Assembly: GCA_027315345.1 (NCBI GenBank)
Contig: DAHUYE010000026.1
Coordinates: 1 to 64,000, forward strand
Reading direction: 5' to 3'
DNA: 64,000 nt
Source: Actinomycetota bacterium
GTDB lineage: Bacteria; Actinomycetota; Acidimicrobiia; Acidimicrobiales; JAJPHE01
Of this stretch, positions 24,218 through 35,099 are shown one piece after another (position 1 is the first letter of the stretch; every line of letters begins with the position of its first letter). The notes beneath the pieces are model-generated. The model was not told the origin of the DNA. It saw nothing but the letters and a program-made list of their open reading frames with translations, and did not search any database. The position numbers and the translations under genes were made by a program.

Positions 24218-26329
24218 CTACCCCACACCCGCCCGGCGCCGCCGGCGGCGGGCCAGCACCAGGCCTCCCCCCACCGTGGGGCCGACCAAGGGTAAGGCGG
24301 CGGCCGGCCGGCGGCCTCGTTGCCGCCGGCGGTACAGCAGGCCGCCCGTAACGGCCAGACCCAGGACCGGTATCAGGGCTGCCAGAGGGGCTTCGGGTAC
24401 GTCGCCTCCCGTGCCTGAACCGGCGCCGGCCAGGCCGTAGACCTGGATGTCGTTGATGATGCTGGTCACGTTCGGAGTGCCGAAGCCGGTGACGTAGTCC
24501 CAGCCCGGAGTAGCCGGGTAGCCGTTGTCCCCAGCCACGATGTCGTTGAAGTCCGACCCGGCCGAAGGCCCGTCACCGAGGGTGTAGAGAATGGGGGCCG
24601 CAAAGCCGTAACCGGCCGGAGTGGACCCGCTGGACTGGATGCGGGCCCACATGCCCTGCCAGAGCGGGGCCGACAGGCTGGTGCCGGCCCCGGTGCCGTC
24701 CGGGCCGATGTCGTACCCATCGCCCAGGACATCCCCGGATTGGGCGGCCACGTCGGGCAGTCCGCGGCACAGCGCTCCGGTGTTGTTGGTGTTCCCGTTG
24801 ACACCGCTCAGGCAGCGACCGACCACATGACTGTCGGCCGCCTGCCAAGGCGGAGCCGGGATGAAGTTGGACGTCCCGCCGCCGCCGAAGTTCCATCCGT
24901 ATTCGGCCACCCGGCTGGCCGGGCTACCCCCGTCGGTGTAGAGAACCGTCCCACCGACTGCCACCGCGTAGGCGCTGGCGGCCGGATAGTCGACGCTGGG
25001 GGCGCCGTTGTACATGACTCCGTTCCCGGCCGACACGACCGGGAGGATGGCCGCTCCGCAAGTGAAGCCGGTGTCGCCCGTACTGGCGAAGAGGGTTTTG
25101 CCCTGCATGTCGGCCAGCAACAGCTGGCTGTCGATGACCGGCTCCTGATCGTCGCCAAAGGCGAGGCCGGGTACGACGCTCTCGTTGTCGTTGGTGTTGA
25201 GCGGCTCGAGCGGGCCTCGCCAGATGCCGTTGAGGGGGGTCTGCTCGCACACCCCTTCCGAGGCGCTGGCCTGCCGAGGCCCGTTCGGGTCCTGAGCCCA
25301 GGCGATAAAGGCCTTGTCCAGATCGGGGTCGGCCAGATTCTGGGAGAAGTAGAGCTGGAGTGAACTGACCTCGGGGGCCATGCCGGTGCTGGCGGTGAAA
25401 TCGATGTCCCACTCCCCATTACCACTGGTGTCGGTCCCGCAATCTGGCTGCCCGTTGGGACCGGCGTCCACGCAGTGGAGGGTGACCGGGACCCGGGGAA
25501 GGTGGAACTCGGTTTCGAAGTTGGCCAGGTTGTTGAGCGGCTCGGTGGGGTCCCCCTCACCGATGACGGCCAGCTGCTGGCCCTTGCCGGCAATGTCGGC
25601 GGGCTGCTGGTAGATATTCCAGAGGTCCTGGGGTGTGGTCGTCATGGATATCCCGGTCCCAGCCGCTTTGGCCTGCGCCTGCTCGGCTTTGGCGGCCGCC
25701 ACGGCCGCGGCCGAGTGCGACAGGGTCGGCAGCCTCCAGTGCTGGGCCGTGTCCAGACCCACGATGGTGCCTATCTGGTCGCCCGACCACACCGTGGGGC
25801 CTTGTTGGTTGGCCACGAAACTGGACCCGTCACCGGATCGATAGGTCATCTCATCGACACCGAAGGCCTTCCGGATGGCAGCCGGGTCGCCCTGAGCCGA
25901 GACCACATCCCCGGTCACGGCCACGTCGGTCACATTCAGGCCGGCAGCCTTCAGACGGTGCACCACATCGGCGGTGACGGCCGGGGCGGGCCCGAATCGC
26001 CTCCCCTCCTGGGCCGGGGTCAGGAAATGGTGGTAGTCGGCATTGCCCTTGGTCGAGATGGCCTGGAGATAGGCCATTTCGGCGGCCGGGTCGGGGTCCT
26101 GGATGGCCACCACCACCCGCAAGACGGTGCCCGACGGGGCCGGACCGACCACCTGGTCCTGGGCGATCCCCGGTACCCGGTCCCAGGTGAGAGTGACCGG
26201 GTGGCCGGGATTGAAGGGGGATGCCGGAGCGGTGGAGGCGGAGGCAGTGCCGGCCAGCAGTGCCAGCGGGCCGGCCGCCAGCACCCCCACGGCCGCCAGC
26301 CGCCAGGCCTTGATAGGCCGCGCCCTCAT
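24218..26329 (-). CDS. Sedolisin (S53) protease with VPEAP sorting-type C-terminus
   Basis: A 703-residue exported serine-carboxyl protease of the kumamolisin type, normally active at acid pH. A signal peptide (1-31), an S53 activation prodomain (about 45-195, with DYHHFLTPAQ) and the catalytic domain follow in order. Active-site residues are E306 and D310 in GNGEWDIDF, oxyanion Asp D419 in STGDTG and Ser S551 in GTSLSAP; FNDIVAGDNG is the calcium site. The C-terminus has VPEAP (644-648), a membrane helix, RRRQRGRR, and then 29 extra residues ending in six Arg. The ATG follows the upstream protease stop with no gap (TAGATG) and uses GGAG 8 nt upstream, so the two proteases are coupled. A linked exosortase is the likely processing enzyme. 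Confidence 0.9.
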   Translation of the reverse strand: MRARPIKAWRLAAVGVLAAGPLALLAGTASASTAPASPFNPGHPVTLTWDRVPGIAQDQVVGPAPSGTVLRVVVAIQDPDPAAEMAYLQAISTKGNADYHHFLTPAQEGRRFGPAPAVTADVVHRLKAAGLNVTDVAVTGDVVSAQGDPAAIRKAFGVDEMTYRSGDGSSFVANQQGPTVWSGDQIGTIVGLDTAQHWRLPTLSHSAAAVAAAKAEQAQAKAAGTGISMTTTPQDLWNIYQQPADIAGKGQQLAVIGEGDPTEPLNNLANFETEFHLPRVPVTLHCVDAGPNGQPDCGTDTSGNGEWDIDFTASTGMAPEVSSLQLYFSQNLADPDLDKAFIAWAQDPNGPRQASASEGVCEQTPLNGIWRGPLEPLNTNDNESVVPGLAFGDDQEPVIDSQLLLADMQGKTLFASTGDTGFTCGAAILPVVSAGNGVMYNGAPSVDYPAASAYAVAVGGTVLYTDGGSPASRVAEYGWNFGGGGTSNFIPAPPWQAADSHVVGRCLSGVNGNTNNTGALCRGLPDVAAQSGDVLGDGYDIGPDGTGAGTSLSAPLWQGMWARIQSSGSTPAGYGFAAPILYTLGDGPSAGSDFNDIVAGDNGYPATPGWDYVTGFGTPNVTSIINDIQVYGLAGAGSGTGGDVPEAPLAALIPVLGLAVTGGLLYRRRQRGRRPAAALPLVGPTVGGGLVLARRRRRRAGVG

Positions 26330-29050
26330 CTACTTGGCTCCGATGGCGACGGTCCGCCGGCGGCGGCGCCGGATGAGCAGACCGGCCGCCCCCAGGCCGA
26401 TGACCGGGATGGCCGCGGCCACGGGAGCTTCCGGAACCTGACCGCCGCCGGGAGTTCCGCCGCTGGTGCCGGGGTTACCGGTGGCGGCGCAGACCTCCCC
26501 GAGCGTGTAGGGGTAGTTGGCGGCCTGGGTGTCCAGGACCTGAAGGCTGCCGCCCGCCGTCGGGACACCCACCAACTCATCGCTCTCCCCGCCGAGACCG
26601 GTCAGCACGGCGCCGGGTCCCGGATGGCCCACGTCGGACAGCGGAACGGTGACGCTGATCTGGCCATCGGGACCGGTGGTGATACTCCCGGTGGTAAGAC
26701 TGCCCGCGCTCTGGTACTGGTTGGAAGTGCCGACCTTGTTGACCGTCCCGTAGCTGTAGTCGATCGTGCCGGCCACGGTCACCTCAGCGTTGGTGAAGTA
26801 GGTGGTGCCGGCGTAGGTCCAGTACATGTAGTACTCGTTGGCCGTCCCGTACGGCGGGGTGGAGCCGGCGGAGTCCTTCATGTCGTTGACGGTGAGAACG
26901 GTGGTGAGAGAGGTGCTTGTGTTGTGGATGTCGCCCTGCACCAGAGCCATCTGCGGGTAGTCGGTCCCCGTTGGGTCGATGGCCGCGACGGCCTGGGCGT
27001 TGGGGGCGCTCCACAGCGGGACGCAGGCCGCATCGACCGGATTGCCCGACCCGGACCCGCCGCCGCTGGTGGAAAGGAGGGTGCCGTTGGTGCCGTCGTA
27101 GTAGCTGACGGTGTTGGAATTGGGCGAGGGGACGTCGTTGATCGGGGTGGTGCTCCCGTCGAGGGCCTGAGTGAGCGGCGTCACGTTCATGACCCCGAGC
27201 CCGCTGGTGTAGTCCCAGCCCGGACCGGACACGAAGTAGCCGTTGGAGGTCGGGGGGCTGGGCGGGGTGTCGTTCGGGTTCCCGATGTCGTAGAAGGCAC
27301 TCTCATGCTGATAGAGGCTCGGGTCGGCCAGCCCGTTGCCGCAGTACGGGGCGCAGTCGGAGGAAGAGGAGTTCTGGGGCGCGGCGGCCTGGACTCGAGC
27401 CCACATGCCCAGGGACAGCGGGGAGGAGAGACTGGTGCCTCCCTGCTGGGTGGCTGAGCCGTCGTAGTAGATGCCGTAGCCGTTGGTGACGATGTCGCCC
27501 GACTGGGCGGATATATCGGGCACGGCCCGGCAGGGAACGGCGGACGTATTGGGGTTGCCGGCTTCGTCATAGGGGCACTGCATGGTCCCGGGACCCCCGG
27601 AGCCGGTGCCGTTGATCTTCGCCTGCCAGGACGGCTCCGGGTAGATGAGACTGCTCCCACCGCCGGTGTCGTTCCAGGAGTACTCGACCGAGCGCTGGTT
27701 GGGGGTGGCGCCGGTGGTGTAGAGAACCGTGCCGCCGACGCAGGTGACCTCAGGCAGGGCGCAGGGGACGTTGACGTCGGGGAAGGCCTGGTTGGCCACG
27801 CCGTTGGTGTCAACCGGGACCACGGGACAGGACGAGCCGTCGTCACCGGCCGAGGAGAACAGCGTGCGGCCCTCGAGGGTTGCACCCTCGAGGGTCTGCT
27901 GGTAACTGGCTTCGGCTGCCTGGCCCATGGCGAAGTCAGTCCCGGAGGGAAGCTGCTGGGCGGCGGGATCGTACTCGCACTCCCCGTAGGAGGCGCTGGC
28001 CTGCAGGGGTGCAGCGGAGTCCCCGGCCCAGTCATCCACGACACTCAGGACATCGGCGTCGGTCAGGCTGGTGCCGAAGTACAGGTCGAGCTCGGACAGA
28101 TTCGGAACCATGCCGGTGGAGGACTGGGTGTCGATGTCCCACTCCTCGTCCCCGGCGGTGTCGGTGTACTTGGCGGCCGCGCCGTCCACCTCGACCACCC
28201 GGACCGGGACATTGGGCAGGGCGTCGGAGCACTTGATGGCGGCGCCGCAGGTGGAGAGTTGGTCCGGGTTGGCCTCGAAGTCGCGCAAGTCCTGGATCGG
28301 CGGCGTCCATGCCCCCTCGCCGAAGATGGCCACTCTCTGGCCCTGGCCCGTATCGCCGGCGGGCTGGTCGTAGGTTGACCACATGTCCTCCGGCGTGGTG
28401 GCACCCATACAGGGGGCGCCGTTACTGGCCGGGGTCTGGCAGAAGCTCTGCTGGGGCCTGGACCCGGCCTTGAGTGAGTTGGTGTGCATGACCTGCGCCG
28501 TGTTGAGACCGACCACGCCGATGATCCCGATCCCGGCTGGCACCGTCGGGGCGTTGGCGTTGGCATAGAAGTGCAGTCCGTGCCAGACGTAGTTGTCGAT
28601 GGTGACACCGAAGGTGGTCTCGGCCTGCCCCACCGTTCCGGTGAGGACGATGAGATCGCGACTGGTCGAGACCCGGTTGACAGTGAGGCCGTGGGCGGTG
28701 CCGTATGACAGGGCGGCCCGGTAGTAGCCGGCCGGAGCGCCGAATTCGCTGGCGATCTGGGCCGTGGTCAGGAAATGGTGGTAGTCCGGACTCCCCGGCG
28801 TGTACACGGCCTTGAGCTCCGCCGCCTCGGCGGCCGGGTTGGCCCCGGACAGGGCGATATCAACCTCAACGGCGGTGGAAGAAGGCGTGGCTCCGGATGG
28901 TGCCAATGCACTCAGTCCGGGGATGACATCGGCGCCCAACCGGGTCATGGCCGGAGCCGGAGCAGCGGCGGAGGCCGCGCCGGTCATGGCCAGGGAAGTG
29001 GCGCCGGCGACGGCGGTAGCGGCAAGCACGGCAAGGTAGCGGCGCAACAA
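26330..29050 (-). CDS. Large sedolisin (S53) protease with VPEAP sorting-type C-terminus
   Basis: A 906-residue relative of the downstream protease. A signal peptide (1-30) and prodomain (about 60-190, DYHHFLTTAQ) precede the catalytic domain with E303 and D307 in DEEWDIDTQ, D403 in SAGDDG and S540 in GGTSLSSP. An extra beta-rich domain (about 640-850, containing ANEYYMYWTYAGTTYF) resembles accessory sandwich domains of secreted subtilases. The last 35 residues are VPEAP (from 872), a short hydrophobic helix and six Arg. The start is TTG 29050 with AGAGGAA about 5 nt upstream. It lies downstream of the glycosyltransferase and exosortase genes on the same strand. Confidence 0.9.
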   Translation of the reverse strand: MLRRYLAVLAATAVAGATSLAMTGAASAAAPAPAMTRLGADVIPGLSALAPSGATPSSTAVEVDIALSGANPAAEAAELKAVYTPGSPDYHHFLTTAQIASEFGAPAGYYRAALSYGTAHGLTVNRVSTSRDLIVLTGTVGQAETTFGVTIDNYVWHGLHFYANANAPTVPAGIGIIGVVGLNTAQVMHTNSLKAGSRPQQSFCQTPASNGAPCMGATTPEDMWSTYDQPAGDTGQGQRVAIFGEGAWTPPIQDLRDFEANPDQLSTCGAAIKCSDALPNVPVRVVEVDGAAAKYTDTAGDEEWDIDTQSSTGMVPNLSELDLYFGTSLTDADVLSVVDDWAGDSAAPLQASASYGECEYDPAAQQLPSGTDFAMGQAAEASYQQTLEGATLEGRTLFSSAGDDGSSCPVVPVDTNGVANQAFPDVNVPCALPEVTCVGGTVLYTTGATPNQRSVEYSWNDTGGGSSLIYPEPSWQAKINGTGSGGPGTMQCPYDEAGNPNTSAVPCRAVPDISAQSGDIVTNGYGIYYDGSATQQGGTSLSSPLSLGMWARVQAAAPQNSSSSDCAPYCGNGLADPSLYQHESAFYDIGNPNDTPPSPPTSNGYFVSGPGWDYTSGLGVMNVTPLTQALDGSTTPINDVPSPNSNTVSYYDGTNGTLLSTSGGGSGSGNPVDAACVPLWSAPNAQAVAAIDPTGTDYPQMALVQGDIHNTSTSLTTVLTVNDMKDSAGSTPPYGTANEYYMYWTYAGTTYFTNAEVTVAGTIDYSYGTVNKVGTSNQYQSAGSLTTGSITTGPDGQISVTVPLSDVGHPGPGAVLTGLGGESDELVGVPTAGGSLQVLDTQAANYPYTLGEVCAATGNPGTSGGTPGGGQVPEAPVAAAIPVIGLGAAGLLIRRRRRRTVAIGAK

Positions 29051-29161
29051 GAGAGTTCCTCTTCTGTCGAATGGTCGGCGGGGGTCAAGCTCGGAAGGCT
29101 GAACCGAGTGGGAGCGAATGCGGCAAGCCCCAGATAGAGCGCTCCGACTCTGGATGAGAAG

Positions 29162-29196
29162 GTTTCCGGGGCAGGTGGTGATCTCCTCCCGGAAAC
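29162..29196 (-). promoter_or_regulatory. 9-bp hairpin in the leader between glycosyltransferase and protease genes
   Basis: GTTTCCGGG / CCCGGAAAC is a perfect 9-bp stem with a 17-nt loop, placed 13 bases after the glycosyltransferase stop and 112 bases before the protease start. It may be a terminator for the upstream pair or a 5' leader structure of the protease mRNA. The other 120 bases of this gap show only a weak promoter candidate (TTGACC near 29085). Confidence 0.45.
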
Positions 29197-29209
29197 GGAC
29201 AAATTTCTG

Positions 29210-32200
29210 TTAAGGGCCGATGAACGACCCCCTTTGGCTAGAAGTCGCTAACTCTTGCCCGCCAAGAGCCGGTGCGCGCCGCCGGTCCGGGGCCGGTGCC
29301 TCCGATGTCTTGGGAGTCGGGGTCCATCTGGCCTGACGGGCACCGATCAACCAACGCATCAATGCGATGAAAGGCCCGGCGGTCTCGAACAATCCACTGA
29401 TCGGGGTGAGCAGAAGAATGGTCAGGTGCTGGCGCAGACGGTTGAACCGCGACAGCTGTTGATACCGCAGATTGCGGGCCAAGCCGATTTGATAGGAGAC
29501 GACCCATCCCGCTCCGGCCAGCAGTATGAACGCCCGCCACACGCCGAGCGGTGAGCTCAGTGCCGCCTGACGGATGGCCGGATGCAGAAAGAAGAACAGG
29601 CCGGCAAAGCCGATGGGAAAGCCCAGGGCGTAGGTGCCGACCCGGAAGCCGACGGCCAGCCGCAGCCGGCGACGCTGGGGAGCCGGGATGGAACGCAGAT
29701 CGTCGCGCTGTCCCATCGCCCGCCAGCCCTGCAGCGCTCCCAGGACCCAGCGCAGTCTCTGCTGAATGGCCCAGTAGACCGACAGTGGAGGCTGCTCGAG
29801 CATGGTGGCGCCGTGCCAGCCGAATCCTTCGTCACCGAGCATGGAATAGGCCCGCAGGCCGAAGAGCAGATCCTCGGCGATGTAGGGCTGGCCGTCGACG
29901 GTCCCGAAGTCCCATCCGATCTCGTTTTCCACCGCCTCGTCCACGACCAGGTTCGAACCGTGCAGGTGAGGCGGCGGGGGGTTGGACATGACCCGAGCGC
30001 ATTCCGAGCAGCCGAAGGGCCGCAGCGACTCCATGGCCCGGCACATCCAGGGCGCCTTGTCCCACTCCAGCGGGTAGAGGATCGGGCCCTGGCTGACCGG
30101 GGCCGGGTTGTCCGACAGGTAGTCGACCAAAACCAGCAGGTGATCCTCGGTGACCAGTGTCTCCTCATCCAGATGGACGATGAAGCTGCGTCCCTCCACT
30201 GCGTTCCAACCGGCCAGACGACGCTCGACCATGTGGTGCATGGCCCTGGCCTTGAGACCCGTCCCATTCGGCGTGCGGTAGCTGGCCGGCAGGCAGAGGG
30301 CGCGAACAGGGATGTTGGCCGTGGCGAAGTGGAGAGGCAGATGCTCGGCCTCCTGCGCCGATTCGGTGATGACCTCCACCGACATCTTCGGCGCCAGCCA
30401 GGGCTGGGCGGCGGCTATGTCGACGATGCCCTGGACGGTGCGCTCCACGATGGCCGGTGCGCCGCCCCGGGTCGTGACCTGGAACTTGAGGTTAGGAAGA
30501 GCCCGGGTCGCCAGCACGGCCACATCCACCTCCGGCGCCCGGGCGAAGTACCTGCGGCTCGACAGCCAGCACCGGTAGTAATAGACGTAGCGGACGGCAA
30601 TGCCGCTGAGCAGAACAGAGAGGACCACGGCGGTGGCCTTGTAGGCCTGGCCACCGGGCAGGGTGGCCGAACTCGATCCCGGCAGCCATTCGGTGACCAG
30701 GGTCATGAGCACCGAGGTGGCCGTCAGGAGATAGGTGACCAGCAGCAGACCCGCCGCCGCGTAACCGGCGGCCCTCCAGGCCCGGCTGCTCGTGGTCGGT
30801 GATCCGGAAACAACCGGAGACCTCCGGTCACGGCTGTGGAGCCACACCACACCCTGATGGCGGAACAGGCTCTGTCCGGCCACAGCCGCCGCCAGCAGGA
30901 TGGCCACCATCAACAGCACCCAGGGCAGCGGCAGGAGAGGGAGCGGGGAGCGGGGCGACAGGACGGCCTCGAAGCGTGTCCCTGAGCCGTCCCGCGCCGA
31001 TGGGCCCGAGCCGCCGGCGGCGGCTCCCGAGGGGACCCCAGGACCGGTGGCCGCACCGGGGGCGTACGCCTCTGGGCCGGCTGCTCCCGAGGAGCCGGCC
31101 GGGGTCGCGTCCGTGCCGTTGAGAGAGGCGGGCCAGAAGACGGCGCCGGTGGCAGCCGGAGCGGCTCTCGAGACCGAAAGAGCCACCAGCCCAGGGGCGT
31201 TTCCGGCCGGCCCGGCGGGGCCCGAGATCGTCGCGATGCCGGACGGAGCCCCGCCCGCGCCGGACGTCAGTGATCCCCCGCCGCTGTCCACGGTGCCGAC
31301 CGGAACGCTCACCCCGTCGGCCCGGACCAGTTCCAGCTGACCGGCAGCACCTCCGGGAACGGTCAGGGTCACCAGCCGATCACTCCACGTGCCTAGAGCC
31401 GCCACCCCGCCGATCAGTGCCGCACCGGAGGGCCCGAAGCCCGAGCCGGTGACCGTGAGGACCTCTCCGGCATGGACAGGGCCTCCGGGCGAGACCGCGC
31501 CCAGCACGGGGGAAACGTCCAGTGTCCCCGCCGGTATGGAGATGTCGATCGACGGGCTGGTGGAGCCGCCGGCGGTGTCGTAGGGCGCCAGGAACTCAAG
31601 CGTCAGGACGCCGTTGCAGTACGCCACCGGTCCCGGGACCTGCAGCCGGCTGTCGCTGAAAGCGGTGGCCGGCACGGCCGGGCCCCCGCAGTAGGAAGCC
31701 AGCACGGAAGCTCCCGGCAGTTGGGCCAGGCCGAAGCCGTTCCCGCTGACGCTCAACGGTGTCCCTTCGGCCGGGTCGGCCGGAAACAGTCCGTCGGCGA
31801 CCGGGATACCGACAATGTTGAAATTGGAGTTGCTGAGCGAGGTGTCACCCAGGGCATCGGTCACTCGGACCCGGACCGCTCCGCCCGGGGAACCTGAGGG
31901 CATGGCGAAGTGGACCTCGGTGGCCGAGTCGGCCACGGCTGCCACGGTTGACCCCCCCAGCGTCACCGCCACCGTGCAAAGGGGGCCGGAGAGACCCGAA
32001 CCGGTGACGAACACGGTCTGGCCGGAAGAAGCCCAGTGCCGCCCGTCAGCGGTAGCCACACCGGTCACAGCCGGGGAAGGACAGGCGTCCACTCCGGCCA
32101 CCGACGGACCGCCTCCTGCGGCACTCGACCCCGTGCTGGTGGTCAGCCCGGTGACCGAGGTGGGGAGGGAAAGGGCGCCGGCCGGCGCCGCACCGATACC

Positions 32201-32287
32201 CCAGGCGCCGGACAGTCCTGCTCCAACCACCACCACCACCGCCGCCAGCCGGCGCCGGCGGTCCGAGGTGCTCGGCCGCCGGCTCAT
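29210..32287 (-). CDS. Membrane glycosyltransferase (GT2-like) with IPT/TIG-like ectodomains
   Basis: A 1025-residue fusion. A signal or membrane helix (about 12-40) is followed by three IPT/TIG-like segments with GSGLSG, SGNGFG and TGSGFGPSG turns (about 70-340) and a Gly/Ala/Pro linker. Membrane helices near 447-472, 503-532 and 550-572 come next. The catalytic domain has FIVHLDEETLVTED (D707), GSNLVVDEAVE, AEDLLFGLRAY and the processive-type QQRLRW (842-847), then C-terminal helices. The catalytic part recalls Egh-like GT2 beta-mannosyltransferases. ATG 32287 overlaps the exosortase stop (ATGA). A role in building or attaching a surface glycan is inferred. Confidence 0.78.
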   Translation of the reverse strand: MSRRPSTSDRRRRLAAVVVVVGAGLSGAWGIGAAPAGALSLPTSVTGLTTSTGSSAAGGGPSVAGVDACPSPAVTGVATADGRHWASSGQTVFVTGSGLSGPLCTVAVTLGGSTVAAVADSATEVHFAMPSGSPGGAVRVRVTDALGDTSLSNSNFNIVGIPVADGLFPADPAEGTPLSVSGNGFGLAQLPGASVLASYCGGPAVPATAFSDSRLQVPGPVAYCNGVLTLEFLAPYDTAGGSTSPSIDISIPAGTLDVSPVLGAVSPGGPVHAGEVLTVTGSGFGPSGAALIGGVAALGTWSDRLVTLTVPGGAAGQLELVRADGVSVPVGTVDSGGGSLTSGAGGAPSGIATISGPAGPAGNAPGLVALSVSRAAPAATGAVFWPASLNGTDATPAGSSGAAGPEAYAPGAATGPGVPSGAAAGGSGPSARDGSGTRFEAVLSPRSPLPLLPLPWVLLMVAILLAAAVAGQSLFRHQGVVWLHSRDRRSPVVSGSPTTSSRAWRAAGYAAAGLLLVTYLLTATSVLMTLVTEWLPGSSSATLPGGQAYKATAVVLSVLLSGIAVRYVYYYRCWLSSRRYFARAPEVDVAVLATRALPNLKFQVTTRGGAPAIVERTVQGIVDIAAAQPWLAPKMSVEVITESAQEAEHLPLHFATANIPVRALCLPASYRTPNGTGLKARAMHHMVERRLAGWNAVEGRSFIVHLDEETLVTEDHLLVLVDYLSDNPAPVSQGPILYPLEWDKAPWMCRAMESLRPFGCSECARVMSNPPPPHLHGSNLVVDEAVENEIGWDFGTVDGQPYIAEDLLFGLRAYSMLGDEGFGWHGATMLEQPPLSVYWAIQQRLRWVLGALQGWRAMGQRDDLRSIPAPQRRRLRLAVGFRVGTYALGFPIGFAGLFFFLHPAIRQAALSSPLGVWRAFILLAGAGWVVSYQIGLARNLRYQQLSRFNRLRQHLTILLLTPISGLFETAGPFIALMRWLIGARQARWTPTPKTSEAPAPDRRRAPALGGQELATSSQRGSFIGP

Positions 32288-33972
32288 CGGACCGCGCCGC
32301 TCGGGTCGGAGCTGCGGGCGCCGATCACGGCCCGGCCGAAATGGACCAGGAAACTGCGGCTCTGGTTCAGGTTGGCCCCCAGGCTGATGGGCCGGGTAGC
32401 GGCGGAGGCACCGGTGTAGGCGGCCGTGACCACATACTCGGCGTCGACGGGAGCCAGCAGGACTATGCGCTCGTAGCTGGTCCCCAGGGCTGTCTCGACC
32501 GGCCAGATCCAGTACAGGGCGTTCCACCGGCCCACTAGGCCCGGGATCTTGAGGGTCATCACAGTGGCCTGGACGCCGGCCCCCAGACCGACCCGTTGGA
32601 TACCGGACAGGCCGTAGCCGTGGTAGTCGTAGCAGGCCAGCACGTCATAGGTACTGAAGGAGGACAGGTTGGGGGTGTCGATCACATCGGCGAGTACGGT
32701 GGCCGCCCCACCGGCTGTCGGGGCATAGGCGTAACGGGTCCAGACCGCTCCGGAGCCGAAGTACTGCGACGCCCAGTCGTAGCGGTCGATGGGCTGCACC
32801 GACCAGCCCGGGAGCTGGATGGGGGCTTGGGCAAAGGAGACCAGTCGGGGCGTCCCCAGCTGGCCGGCCAGGGGACCGAACCGGCCGAAGTTGCCGTCGG
32901 CCGCACCGACTGCGGCCGCCACAAGCGAAACGACCACGGCGGCTCCGAACAGCCGGCCATGCAGCCTCCACCGGGTCGGAGTGGCGGCGGGCTGGTCGGC
33001 CGGGGGAACCCGCGGCGCAGCCGGTCGGAGGTCGAGACGGAAGCGGCCCAGACTGCTCACCATGAGGGCCACCCCGGCACCGAAGAGCACCAGGCCGAGG
33101 ACGGGATGGAGTCCGTCCAGGGCGACGGTCTGGCCGAACCGGGAGCCGGCCCAGAAGATGAGGATGAGACGGACCAGATTGAGCCCGTAGACCAGCACCA
33201 TGCCGGTACCCAGCCAGAGCCCTTTGGCCAGCTTGCCCCCTTCGACCAGGGTGAGCACCGCCATGCCGACCAGGCCGAAGCCGATGAAGCTGTCAACACC
33301 CGTGCAGGCCGACACCACGCTCAGGGGGAACGTCGCTCCGGCGTGATGGACCATGAAGATGGTGCCGCCGCTGGCCCCTGAGGGCGTGGCCACCGGCAGG
33401 ACCCTGAGTAGAGCCCGCACCGACGCCAGGGTCAGGTTGCTGAACTGCGCCATCCCGTGGTCAAGGGCGAAGTTGTAGGGAACCGGCCAGGCCAGCAGCA
33501 GGAAACCGACCGCCCAGCGCATCCGCCACAACGCCGGAGCGCCGAAAAGCACGGCTACGGCCCCGGCGGCGAAGAGAGGAAGCGAGAGGAGATCAACCCG
33601 GTAGAACCAGAAGAGGATCGACATCCGGTCCGGCAACACCACCGCCATCAGCAGGGCCGTGCCGAGCAGGGGCAGACCGACCAGGTAGTCGATGTAACGG
33701 TCCTGAACCACCGAAGCGGGCTGTTCCGGCCGGCTCAGGAGCACCGCGATACCCAGGGCGATGAAGGGGGCCAGGCCGACATAGGCCAGGGGTGTGTCGC
33801 TGCCCAGCGACCCGAGCAGGCTGCTCAGGGAGTACCGGTACGCCACCACCAGGGCCGCCAGCAGCAGCAGCGCCCGGAACCATGGTCGGGACGAGATCTC
33901 AGTCGAGATCCGTCCACGCCAGTTGCCGCGGGTCGCGCCCCATTGGTTCGAATGGTCAAACTGCGCGGGCAC
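32284..33972 (-). CDS. Exosortase fused to an EpsI-like domain
   Basis: A 562-residue membrane protein. The N-terminal 310 residues have eight or so helices and the exosortase/archaeosortase catalytic triad: Cys in SACTGVDSFIGFG (C223), Arg in GLNLVRLILIFWAG (R268) and His in DGLHPVLG (H289). After a Pro-rich linker and one more helix (about 341-358) comes an extracytoplasmic domain of about 200 residues resembling EpsI/DUF3485 (QLPGWSVQPID, YDVLACYDYHGYG). Exosortases cleave C-terminal sorting signals such as PEP-CTERM. GTG 33972 has GGAGG 4 nt upstream. The two VPEAP proteases downstream on the same strand are the obvious substrates. Confidence 0.85.
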   Translation of the reverse strand: MPAQFDHSNQWGATRGNWRGRISTEISSRPWFRALLLLAALVVAYRYSLSSLLGSLGSDTPLAYVGLAPFIALGIAVLLSRPEQPASVVQDRYIDYLVGLPLLGTALLMAVVLPDRMSILFWFYRVDLLSLPLFAAGAVAVLFGAPALWRMRWAVGFLLLAWPVPYNFALDHGMAQFSNLTLASVRALLRVLPVATPSGASGGTIFMVHHAGATFPLSVVSACTGVDSFIGFGLVGMAVLTLVEGGKLAKGLWLGTGMVLVYGLNLVRLILIFWAGSRFGQTVALDGLHPVLGLVLFGAGVALMVSSLGRFRLDLRPAAPRVPPADQPAATPTRWRLHGRLFGAAVVVSLVAAAVGAADGNFGRFGPLAGQLGTPRLVSFAQAPIQLPGWSVQPIDRYDWASQYFGSGAVWTRYAYAPTAGGAATVLADVIDTPNLSSFSTYDVLACYDYHGYGLSGIQRVGLGAGVQATVMTLKIPGLVGRWNALYWIWPVETALGTSYERIVLLAPVDAEYVVTAAYTGASAATRPISLGANLNQSRSFLVHFGRAVIGARSSDPSGAVR

Positions 33973-34055: not shown

Positions 34056-35099
34056 TCAGGCGCCCGTGAGGCCGGCGCGAAAAGCGGCCAAAGTCAGTGG
34101 CGAACTGTCTATCTGCCAGTCCGTTTCCTTAGAAGCATCGAACCAAATGAAGCCTGAAATCGACGGGTCAGATCGCAGGTAGCTGAAGAAGGAATCGATC
34201 CAGGCTGACTTGTCACCGCCGACCGAAGTGCTGGCCACCTCGGTGATGAGCATCGGGCGTCGCGTTATGGCGCGGAGCTGGCTGACCGAGGATCCGAACA
34301 CCTCCGCCGGCGTCTGCCACTGATGACCGTTGGTCGTTCCCCAGTTATAACCGTCCAGTCCAACCCAGCTGACGTAGGCGTCACCGGGATACAGAGACTC
34401 CATCGGCGTGGCGCCCGGGTAGGCAACATTCGGACTCCACACGAAAGCGACGTTGCGGGCCCCGACGCCGGCGAAGACATCGTGAACGTGGCGAAAGGCA
34501 GCCACGTACTCCGCCGCCGTCTGCCCGTTCACACCCGGTGACCATCCGTACCAGTTTCCGTTCATCTCCGGATCGAGACGCAGGAGCACCGGTATGCCCA
34601 GGGATCGCAGACCAAGGGCCCAGGATCGGATGTAGCCGTCGTACCGGCCGGCGGCAATGGCGCGGTCGGTGATGGTGGTGAGACGGGACGGATCGTCCGA
34701 CAGCCAGGTGATGACCGGAGTCGAACCGTTGGCGGCCGCCGCTTCCACATCGGCGGCGTTGAATGCGCTGTAGGGACCGGCCCAGTGCTCGTACCACATG
34801 ACGTAATCGGCCCGCCTACCCACCTCGGCCTGGAGAGACCTGACCGTGGCCATGGTCCCGGGGAAGTCGGGGGCGTACAGGCCCCACTTGCCGCCGTAAC
34901 CGCTCTGGGTGGTGGCCGGCCTCGGGACGGCCACCGTGTGCGAGGCCGGCTTCACCGCGGCCAGGGCCGGACCGGCGCTGACAGCCAGGCCCAGGGCCGG
35001 ACCGGCGCTGACAGCCAGGGCCAGAGCCGCCAGGCCGCCCAGAATCGATGCCCGGCCGCGAGTGGACCGCCGTCCGCTCTCCCCTTCAGAACTCCGCAC
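34056..35099 (-). CDS. Secreted GH26-like glycoside hydrolase
   Basis: A 347-residue exported TIM-barrel enzyme similar to GH26 (mannanases and related endo-glycanases). A basic N-terminus and long signal peptide (about 15-48) contain a duplicated LAVSAGPAL unit. The catalytic acid lies in LRLDPEMNGNWYGW and the nucleophile in PMLITEVASTS. WSPNVAYPG and GFIWFDASKETDW are further GH26-like blocks. It ends without a C-terminal anchor. GTG 35099 has no good ribosome binding site; a GATAGAT sequence just upstream could be a -10. It lies 83 bases before the exosortase gene on the same strand, so the enzyme may trim the glycan made by this locus. Confidence 0.82.
   Translation of the reverse strand: MRSSEGESGRRSTRGRASILGGLAALALAVSAGPALGLAVSAGPALAAVKPASHTVAVPRPATTQSGYGGKWGLYAPDFPGTMATVRSLQAEVGRRADYVMWYEHWAGPYSAFNAADVEAAAANGSTPVITWLSDDPSRLTTITDRAIAAGRYDGYIRSWALGLRSLGIPVLLRLDPEMNGNWYGWSPGVNGQTAAEYVAAFRHVHDVFAGVGARNVAFVWSPNVAYPGATPMESLYPGDAYVSWVGLDGYNWGTTNGHQWQTPAEVFGSSVSQLRAITRRPMLITEVASTSVGGDKSAWIDSFFSYLRSDPSISGFIWFDASKETDWQIDSSPLTLAAFRAGLTGA
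34961..35020. repeat. 30-bp tandem duplication in a signal-peptide region
   Basis: Two adjacent 30-bp copies (34961-34990 and 34991-35020) differ at one base. They encode the repeated LAVSAGPALG/LAVSAGPALA segment of the GH26-like protein and leave the frame intact. Confidence 0.85.

Follow-up and report, generated by a model that had tools for sequence, protein, structure and literature searches.

The question raised by this locus is whether an exosortase encoded in an actinobacterial genome processes the C-terminal tails of two proteases encoded beside it. The locus lies in a 64,000-nucleotide stretch of an Acidimicrobiales genome (assembly GCA_027315345.1, contig DAHUYE010000026.1, positions 1 to 64,000; hereafter the window), where a preliminary description had placed an exosortase gene, a glycosyltransferase gene and two S53 protease genes on the minus strand, with both proteases ending in VPEAP, a helix and an Arg cluster. 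All four genes are found where they were described, and their Pfam identities agree. We consider it very likely that the exosortase processes both protease tails, where the cleavage and its position are what we infer, and it appears likely to nearly the same degree that the enzyme and the two tails form a dedicated exosortase-substrate pairing. The pairing is argued from the anatomy of the genes, the intact catalytic residues, the presence of one exosortase and two tails, the co-occurrence of tail and enzyme across genomes, and the finding of the tail on unrelated cargo. The system is a known kind of sorting system in variant form and no wholly separate kind.

Two tailed proteases and one exosortase

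A signal peptide is recognisable by eye in each protease. Each also has a pro-kumamolisin activation domain (PF09286) and complete S53 catalytic motifs; like kumamolisin and sedolisin, they keep the prodomain and the catalytic Glu, Asp and Ser together with the oxyanion Asp. The protease of 906 residues (26330..29050, minus strand) has these residues at Glu303/Asp307/Asp403/Ser540 and matches a kumamolisin structure (PDB 1t1e, E=3.9e-18), and the protease of 703 residues (24218..26329, minus strand) has them at Glu306/Asp310/Asp419/Ser551. They differ from kumamolisin and sedolisin in carrying an exosortase-type tail. VPEAP begins at residue 872 of 906 and at residue 644 of 703, exactly as had been claimed. 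The sorting tail of the longer protease is VPEAPVAAAIPVIGLGAAGLLIRRRRRRTVAIGAK (26333..26437, minus strand) and that of the shorter one is VPEAPLAALIPVLGLAVTGGLLYRRRQRGRR (24308..24400, minus strand); they match the tail profile described below with per-genome E values of 6.6e-13 and 1.5e-14, respectively, both tails being in its training set. Directly after the second tail, at residues about 675-703 of the shorter protease (24221..24307, minus strand), stands a degenerate second copy of the helix and Arg cluster that is missing VPEAP. Its alignment score of 57 was reached by none of 5000 shuffles, and it matches the profile weakly (E=0.78); it looks like a tail duplicate that lost its motif.

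The tailed proteases have a PEP-CTERM-like architecture, with a signal peptide (by eye), a Pro-Glu motif, a helix and a basic cluster at the C-terminus. Neither protease reaches the 16-bit cut-off of the PEP-CTERM model TIGR02595 (11.2 bits for one, no match for the other), and no match to this model was found among the other cargo scanned. The tail had been proposed to be an actinobacterial form of the PEP-CTERM signal, and this proposal stands, with the motif refined to [VT]PE[AVS]P-xAxLLP.

The focal genome (3.84 Mb, 97.7% complete) was searched throughout for further substrates. A DNA pattern encoding VPEAP gave 25 matches as against 27 for the reversed pattern, so the pattern alone is uninformative; of the 25, only the two at this locus are C-terminal tags with a helix and an Arg cluster. 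The tail profile recovered the same two tails and no further convincing one in this genome. Thus, the genome-wide search that had been proposed for VPEAP-helix-Arg proteins returns only the two proteases of the locus, and the same 3.84 Mb contain a single exosortase.

The exosortase (32284..33972, minus strand; 562 residues) consists of a membrane exosortase domain (PF09721, E=1.8e-14) and a C-terminal soluble-type domain. It passes the PF09721 cut-off and scores 44.1 bits against TIGR04178, where the cut-off is 23, which places it within the superfamily models. The catalytic triad of Cys223 (33304-33306), Arg268 (33169-33171) and His289 (33106-33108), spanning 33106..33306 on the minus strand, is invariant in 32 aligned family members, as is Asn265.

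Tail and exosortase across genomes

To determine whether the tail follows the enzyme, we used 298 genomes of the same order, 12 of which have an orthologue of the window exosortase (29-41% identity in the family alignment). The tail profile was built from 11 tails found beside exosortases, and a genome was counted as matching at E<=1e-5. The tail is present in 11 of the 12 exosortase genomes and in 2 of the 286 others (Fisher p=2.7e-17, kinship among genomes uncorrected), a co-distribution with a C-terminal tripartite signal of the kind that marks the exosortase superfamily. Since exosortase-adjacent tails had served as the training set, we recounted using just the four exosortase genomes from which no training tail came; three of the four have a tail, as against the same 2 of 286 (p=1e-5, kinship again uncorrected). 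The profile thus recognises tails in genomes with an exosortase beyond those used for training. It had been argued that tails equally common in genomes lacking an exosortase would speak against the pairing, and this is not what the 298 genomes contain. When PF09721 was used to look for exosortases of any kind, seven more genomes gave a match, divergent or weak in each case, and all seven lack a tail at E<=1e-5.

Around the exosortase genes, 41 open reading frame (ORF) C-termini score at least 25 bits, a count in which some loci are the same records counted twice; no internal segment and none of 4045 reversed C-termini reaches that score. The motif derived from 75 distinct tails is [VT]PE[VAS]P-x-A-x-L-L-P, in which PE and the final P are partly imposed by the selection pattern; at free positions, Pro stands fifth in 64 and Leu ninth in 51. 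Two related Frankiales/Frankiaceae-labelled metagenome-assembled genomes (MAGs) have 18 and 19 tails genome-wide (E<=0.05).

The tail is carried by unrelated proteins. Hydrolytic cargo across the family includes S15/CocE hydrolases (tailed in G310/G311), PHB-depolymerase-type and other esterases, a tannase-like family, phosphoesterase, melibiase and ceramidase, and the remaining cargo includes NHL, BNR and PD40 propellers and neocarzinostatin-like domains. The suggestion that proteases are dedicated cargo therefore stands for the focal genome, where they are the only detectable cargo, and they recur elsewhere; it does not extend to the family, whose cargo is broad. Protease-only cargo is a property of the focal genome and not of the exosortase family, and proteases as the defining cargo of that family were rejected.

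At least two genomes with an exosortase encode tailed S53 proteases: the focal one and G299, where an S53 protease with 39% identity over 650 residues to the 906-residue protease ends in VPEVP, a helix and Arg residues (VPEVPFVAAVPVVGLVAAGALSAVRRRRRRR). Of 17 further S53 relatives whose C-terminus was read, among them the third S53 protease of the focal genome and relatives in two other exosortase genomes, none has this tail. To judge from the S53 relatives in genomes without an exosortase and from the third S53 protease of the focal genome, which has no tail, the tail is independent of protease ancestry. That third protease (L177:3232-6222, G000 contig C86) has a long Gly-rich end of the GGNGG type. 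A tree of the S53 proteases without their tails is largely unresolved; the tail-bearing proteases form one group in 0% of bootstraps, and one row (G091) is probably a wrong ORF, so the tree carries no weight in our reading.

Weighing the alternatives

One alternative is that the VPEAP tails are sortase signals processed by a cell-wall sortase instead of the exosortase. The motif-helix-basic architecture is common to LPXTG/sortase and exosortase systems, whose enzymes are not homologous; several relatives have a sortase gene beside the tail gene, and in six loci, which form one group in the family tree (support 100/99), a sortase directly follows the exosortase. Moreover, one of the 17 S53 relatives, a close one in a genome without this exosortase (G055, L178:4795-7743; 38% identity over 845 residues) ends in LPPTG, a helix and Arg residues, a sortase-type tail. 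However, VPEAP has no LPXTG-like Thr-Gly, and both sortases of the focal genome are on contigs other than that of the exosortase locus. The tail tracks the exosortase, whereas sortases are present in 37 of 37 genomes checked whether or not there is a tail, and they therefore do not explain the tail distribution. With sortases universal in the sample, we rejected a sortase as the main tail-processing enzyme, and we regard this alternative as very improbable. We rate as about equally improbable the idea that the tail is an unprocessed C-terminal membrane anchor whose PEP-CTERM likeness is convergence on a helix and positive charges. Helix-plus-Arg anchors are common, and the weak profile matches in exosortase-less genomes are of that type, but the PE.P motif before the helix and the LLP proline are conserved among unrelated proteins and confined to genomes with an exosortase.

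Several observations weigh against processing of the tails by the exosortase or against parts of that picture. Two exosortase-negative genomes, G252 and G244, have genuine-looking tails (three of them in G252) in fragmented assemblies that are 88-89% complete, and a third, G161, has a convincing tail on a 54-residue ORF; it is possible that an exosortase was missed in these assemblies. Conversely, the distant exosortase genome G177 has no strong profile match, and a Chloroflexi-labelled clade has no genome-wide match to the tail profile, with weak tail-like sequences adjoining the exosortase (e.g., RVPEAPASALLLLGALP). The profile itself was trained on exosortase-adjacent tails and the counts are uncorrected for kinship, the window glycosyltransferase differs from the one usually linked to exosortase, and cleavage of the VPEAP tails is something we infer from sequence. 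On balance, the linkage and co-distribution argue for the exosortase as the processing enzyme, as had been proposed from linkage.

In sortase and exosortase systems, Sec export is followed by membrane retention through the helix and Arg cluster, attack by a Cys near PE-x-P, and transfer or release. By analogy, both S53 proteases would be exported by Sec, directed by an N-terminal signal peptide, and would stay in the membrane by virtue of their C-terminal helix and Arg cluster. At the outer face the Cys-Arg-His exosortase would recognise VPEAP-xAAxIP, cut there and pass the protease on to an acceptor at the surface. The most plausible acceptor is a glycan, linked to a lipid or a polymer, in whose synthesis the adjacent membrane glycosyltransferase would take part; the pair of proteases would then be displayed on the cell surface. 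We give attachment to a glycan that depends on this glycosyltransferase about an even chance, with the acceptor, the export and the final location all conjectural.

A variant of this outcome is that the exosortase cuts the tails and releases the proteases into the medium, with no surface acceptor involved. Exosortase substrates have been described as surface-attached or released (PMC12188702), the window glycosyltransferase differs from the usual partner, and a surface acceptor for the proteases is hypothetical. Even so, release seems unlikely to us: 22 of 34 loci keep a glycosyltransferase linked to the exosortase, the sortase tail on a protease relative suggests that surface retention is useful to this protease family, and plain secretion needs no tail, most S53 relatives being without one.

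Enzyme class, partners and neighbouring genes

Like the PEP-CTERM/EpsH system of Gram-negative bacteria (exosortase A, XrtA), the present system has a Cys/Arg/His exosortase domain, many substrates per enzyme, substrates with a signal peptide, Pro-Glu motif, helix and basic cluster, and a link to a polysaccharide glycosyltransferase. It differs in its mostly actinobacterial hosts, in cargo that is often recognisable hydrolases, and in a motif that pairs PE-x-P with a later LLP proline inside the helix, the window proteins lying below the TIGR02595 cut-off. The window exosortase is far under the cut-off of every named NCBIfam exosortase class (XrtA to XrtX and others), its best score being 34.1 bits for XrtA against a cut-off of 208, with lower scores for XrtV (29.3 against 313), XrtW (20.9 against 425) and XrtS (12.2 against 145), and it sits on its own long branch of the family tree. 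The Gram-positive pair of XrtG and its glycosyltransferase (TIGR03110/TIGR03111) resembles the present system in a direct link between exosortase and a GT2 glycosyltransferase and in a Gram-positive-type lineage, whereas the XrtG model recognises just 2 of the 12 exosortases even when the threshold is relaxed to E<=0.01, and the GT2 of a relative matches TIGR03111 weakly (27.9 bits, far under the cut-off of 364).

The PEP-CTERM/exosortase system was first defined in outer-membrane bacteria and reported absent from Actinomycetes (PMC1569441), and exosortases have been connected with exopolysaccharide and surface attachment (PMC12188702, PMC1569441); none of the papers we searched mentions exosortase together with Acidimicrobiia. 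The enzyme-signal pair is coherent, mostly actinobacterial, with largely uncultured hosts, and unnamed in NCBIfam, and its substrates include recognisable secreted hydrolases; models of the tail and the exosortase would let annotation pipelines detect such substrates. With one exosortase, one linked GT2 and two tagged proteases, the locus is a small system whose enzymes have assayable activity. Sorting tails of the GlyGly-CTERM, LPXTG and PEP-CTERM kinds are swapped among homologous cargo (PMC3237569), and the occurrence of both VPEAP and LPPTG in a single protease family suggests interchangeable jobs for sortase and exosortase. Tentatively, and at less than even confidence, we suggest a distinct, mostly Acidimicrobiia-type exosortase class that serves as an alternative to sortase for displaying hydrolases, either on a GT2-made glycan or, in one clade, with an adjacent sortase in a two-enzyme pathway of surface assembly, with cargo families able to switch between the tags of the two enzymes.

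Searching with the family alignment turned up 34 loci among named genome records; most are MAGs of Acidimicrobiales/Actinomycetota, and some bear Chloroflexi labels. One is a non-MAG record, the isolate Actinobacteria bacterium IMCC26207 (L121), where the exosortase occurs with a GT2 and tails. The labels Candidatus Melainabacteria, Mycobacterium and Bifidobacterium breve (L106, L110, L129, L130) conflict with exosortases close to the Acidimicrobiales type, and to judge from those sequences these are probably mislabelled or mixed bins. The next gene after the exosortase is a GT2, often overlapping or abutting it, in the 22 loci mentioned above and a sortase (PF04203) in 6 of the 34 (L102, L103, L107, L108, L110, L114). 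AFTG-type tails near some of these six are probably sortase signals. Elsewhere, tail proteins beside sortase genes (L120:3089-3916, L121:4196-4780) weakly resemble enediyne chromoprotein/neocarzinostatin (Ig-like) domains, below cut-offs.

The window GT2 (29210..32287, minus strand) is a membrane glycosyltransferase identified by Pfam and motif positions, a divergent form that has two TIG domains at the N-terminus and a Q..RW motif like that of processive enzymes. Its orthology to the usual linked GT2 is unsupported, one other genome of the 298 matching the GT2 part (E<=1e-6). Its start is very probably the ATG at 32287, which overlaps the exosortase stop as ATGA, and not the GTG of the long ORF.

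The C-terminal domain of the exosortase, delimited by alignment to residues about 390-508 (32449..32805, minus strand), is predicted to be beta-rich. It has no Pfam or NCBIfam match, including the EpsI/DUF3485 models, and nothing among PDB folds at E<=0.001; weaker matches to MOG1/PsbP/LpqN-like folds, none of them at that threshold, are a lead only. The AlphaFold2 model of the exosortase has a mean predicted local distance difference test score of 77.8 and a predicted template modelling score of 0.64. Within this domain Cys447, Tyr448 and His451 (32620-32634) are invariant in the 32 aligned members, and this conservation suggests that Cys447-Tyr448-x-x-His451 could be a second functional site.

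Upstream of the exosortase lies a GH26-like secreted glycoside hydrolase gene (34056..35099, minus strand; PF02156, E=6.1e-13). In transcription order on the minus strand, the genes are the hydrolase, the exosortase, the GT2, the 906-residue protease and the 703-residue protease, separated by 83 nucleotides, a 4-nucleotide ATGA overlap, 159 nucleotides and 0 nucleotides, so that the start of the last gene abuts the stop of the one before it. The GH26-like gene is possibly in the same operon as the exosortase.

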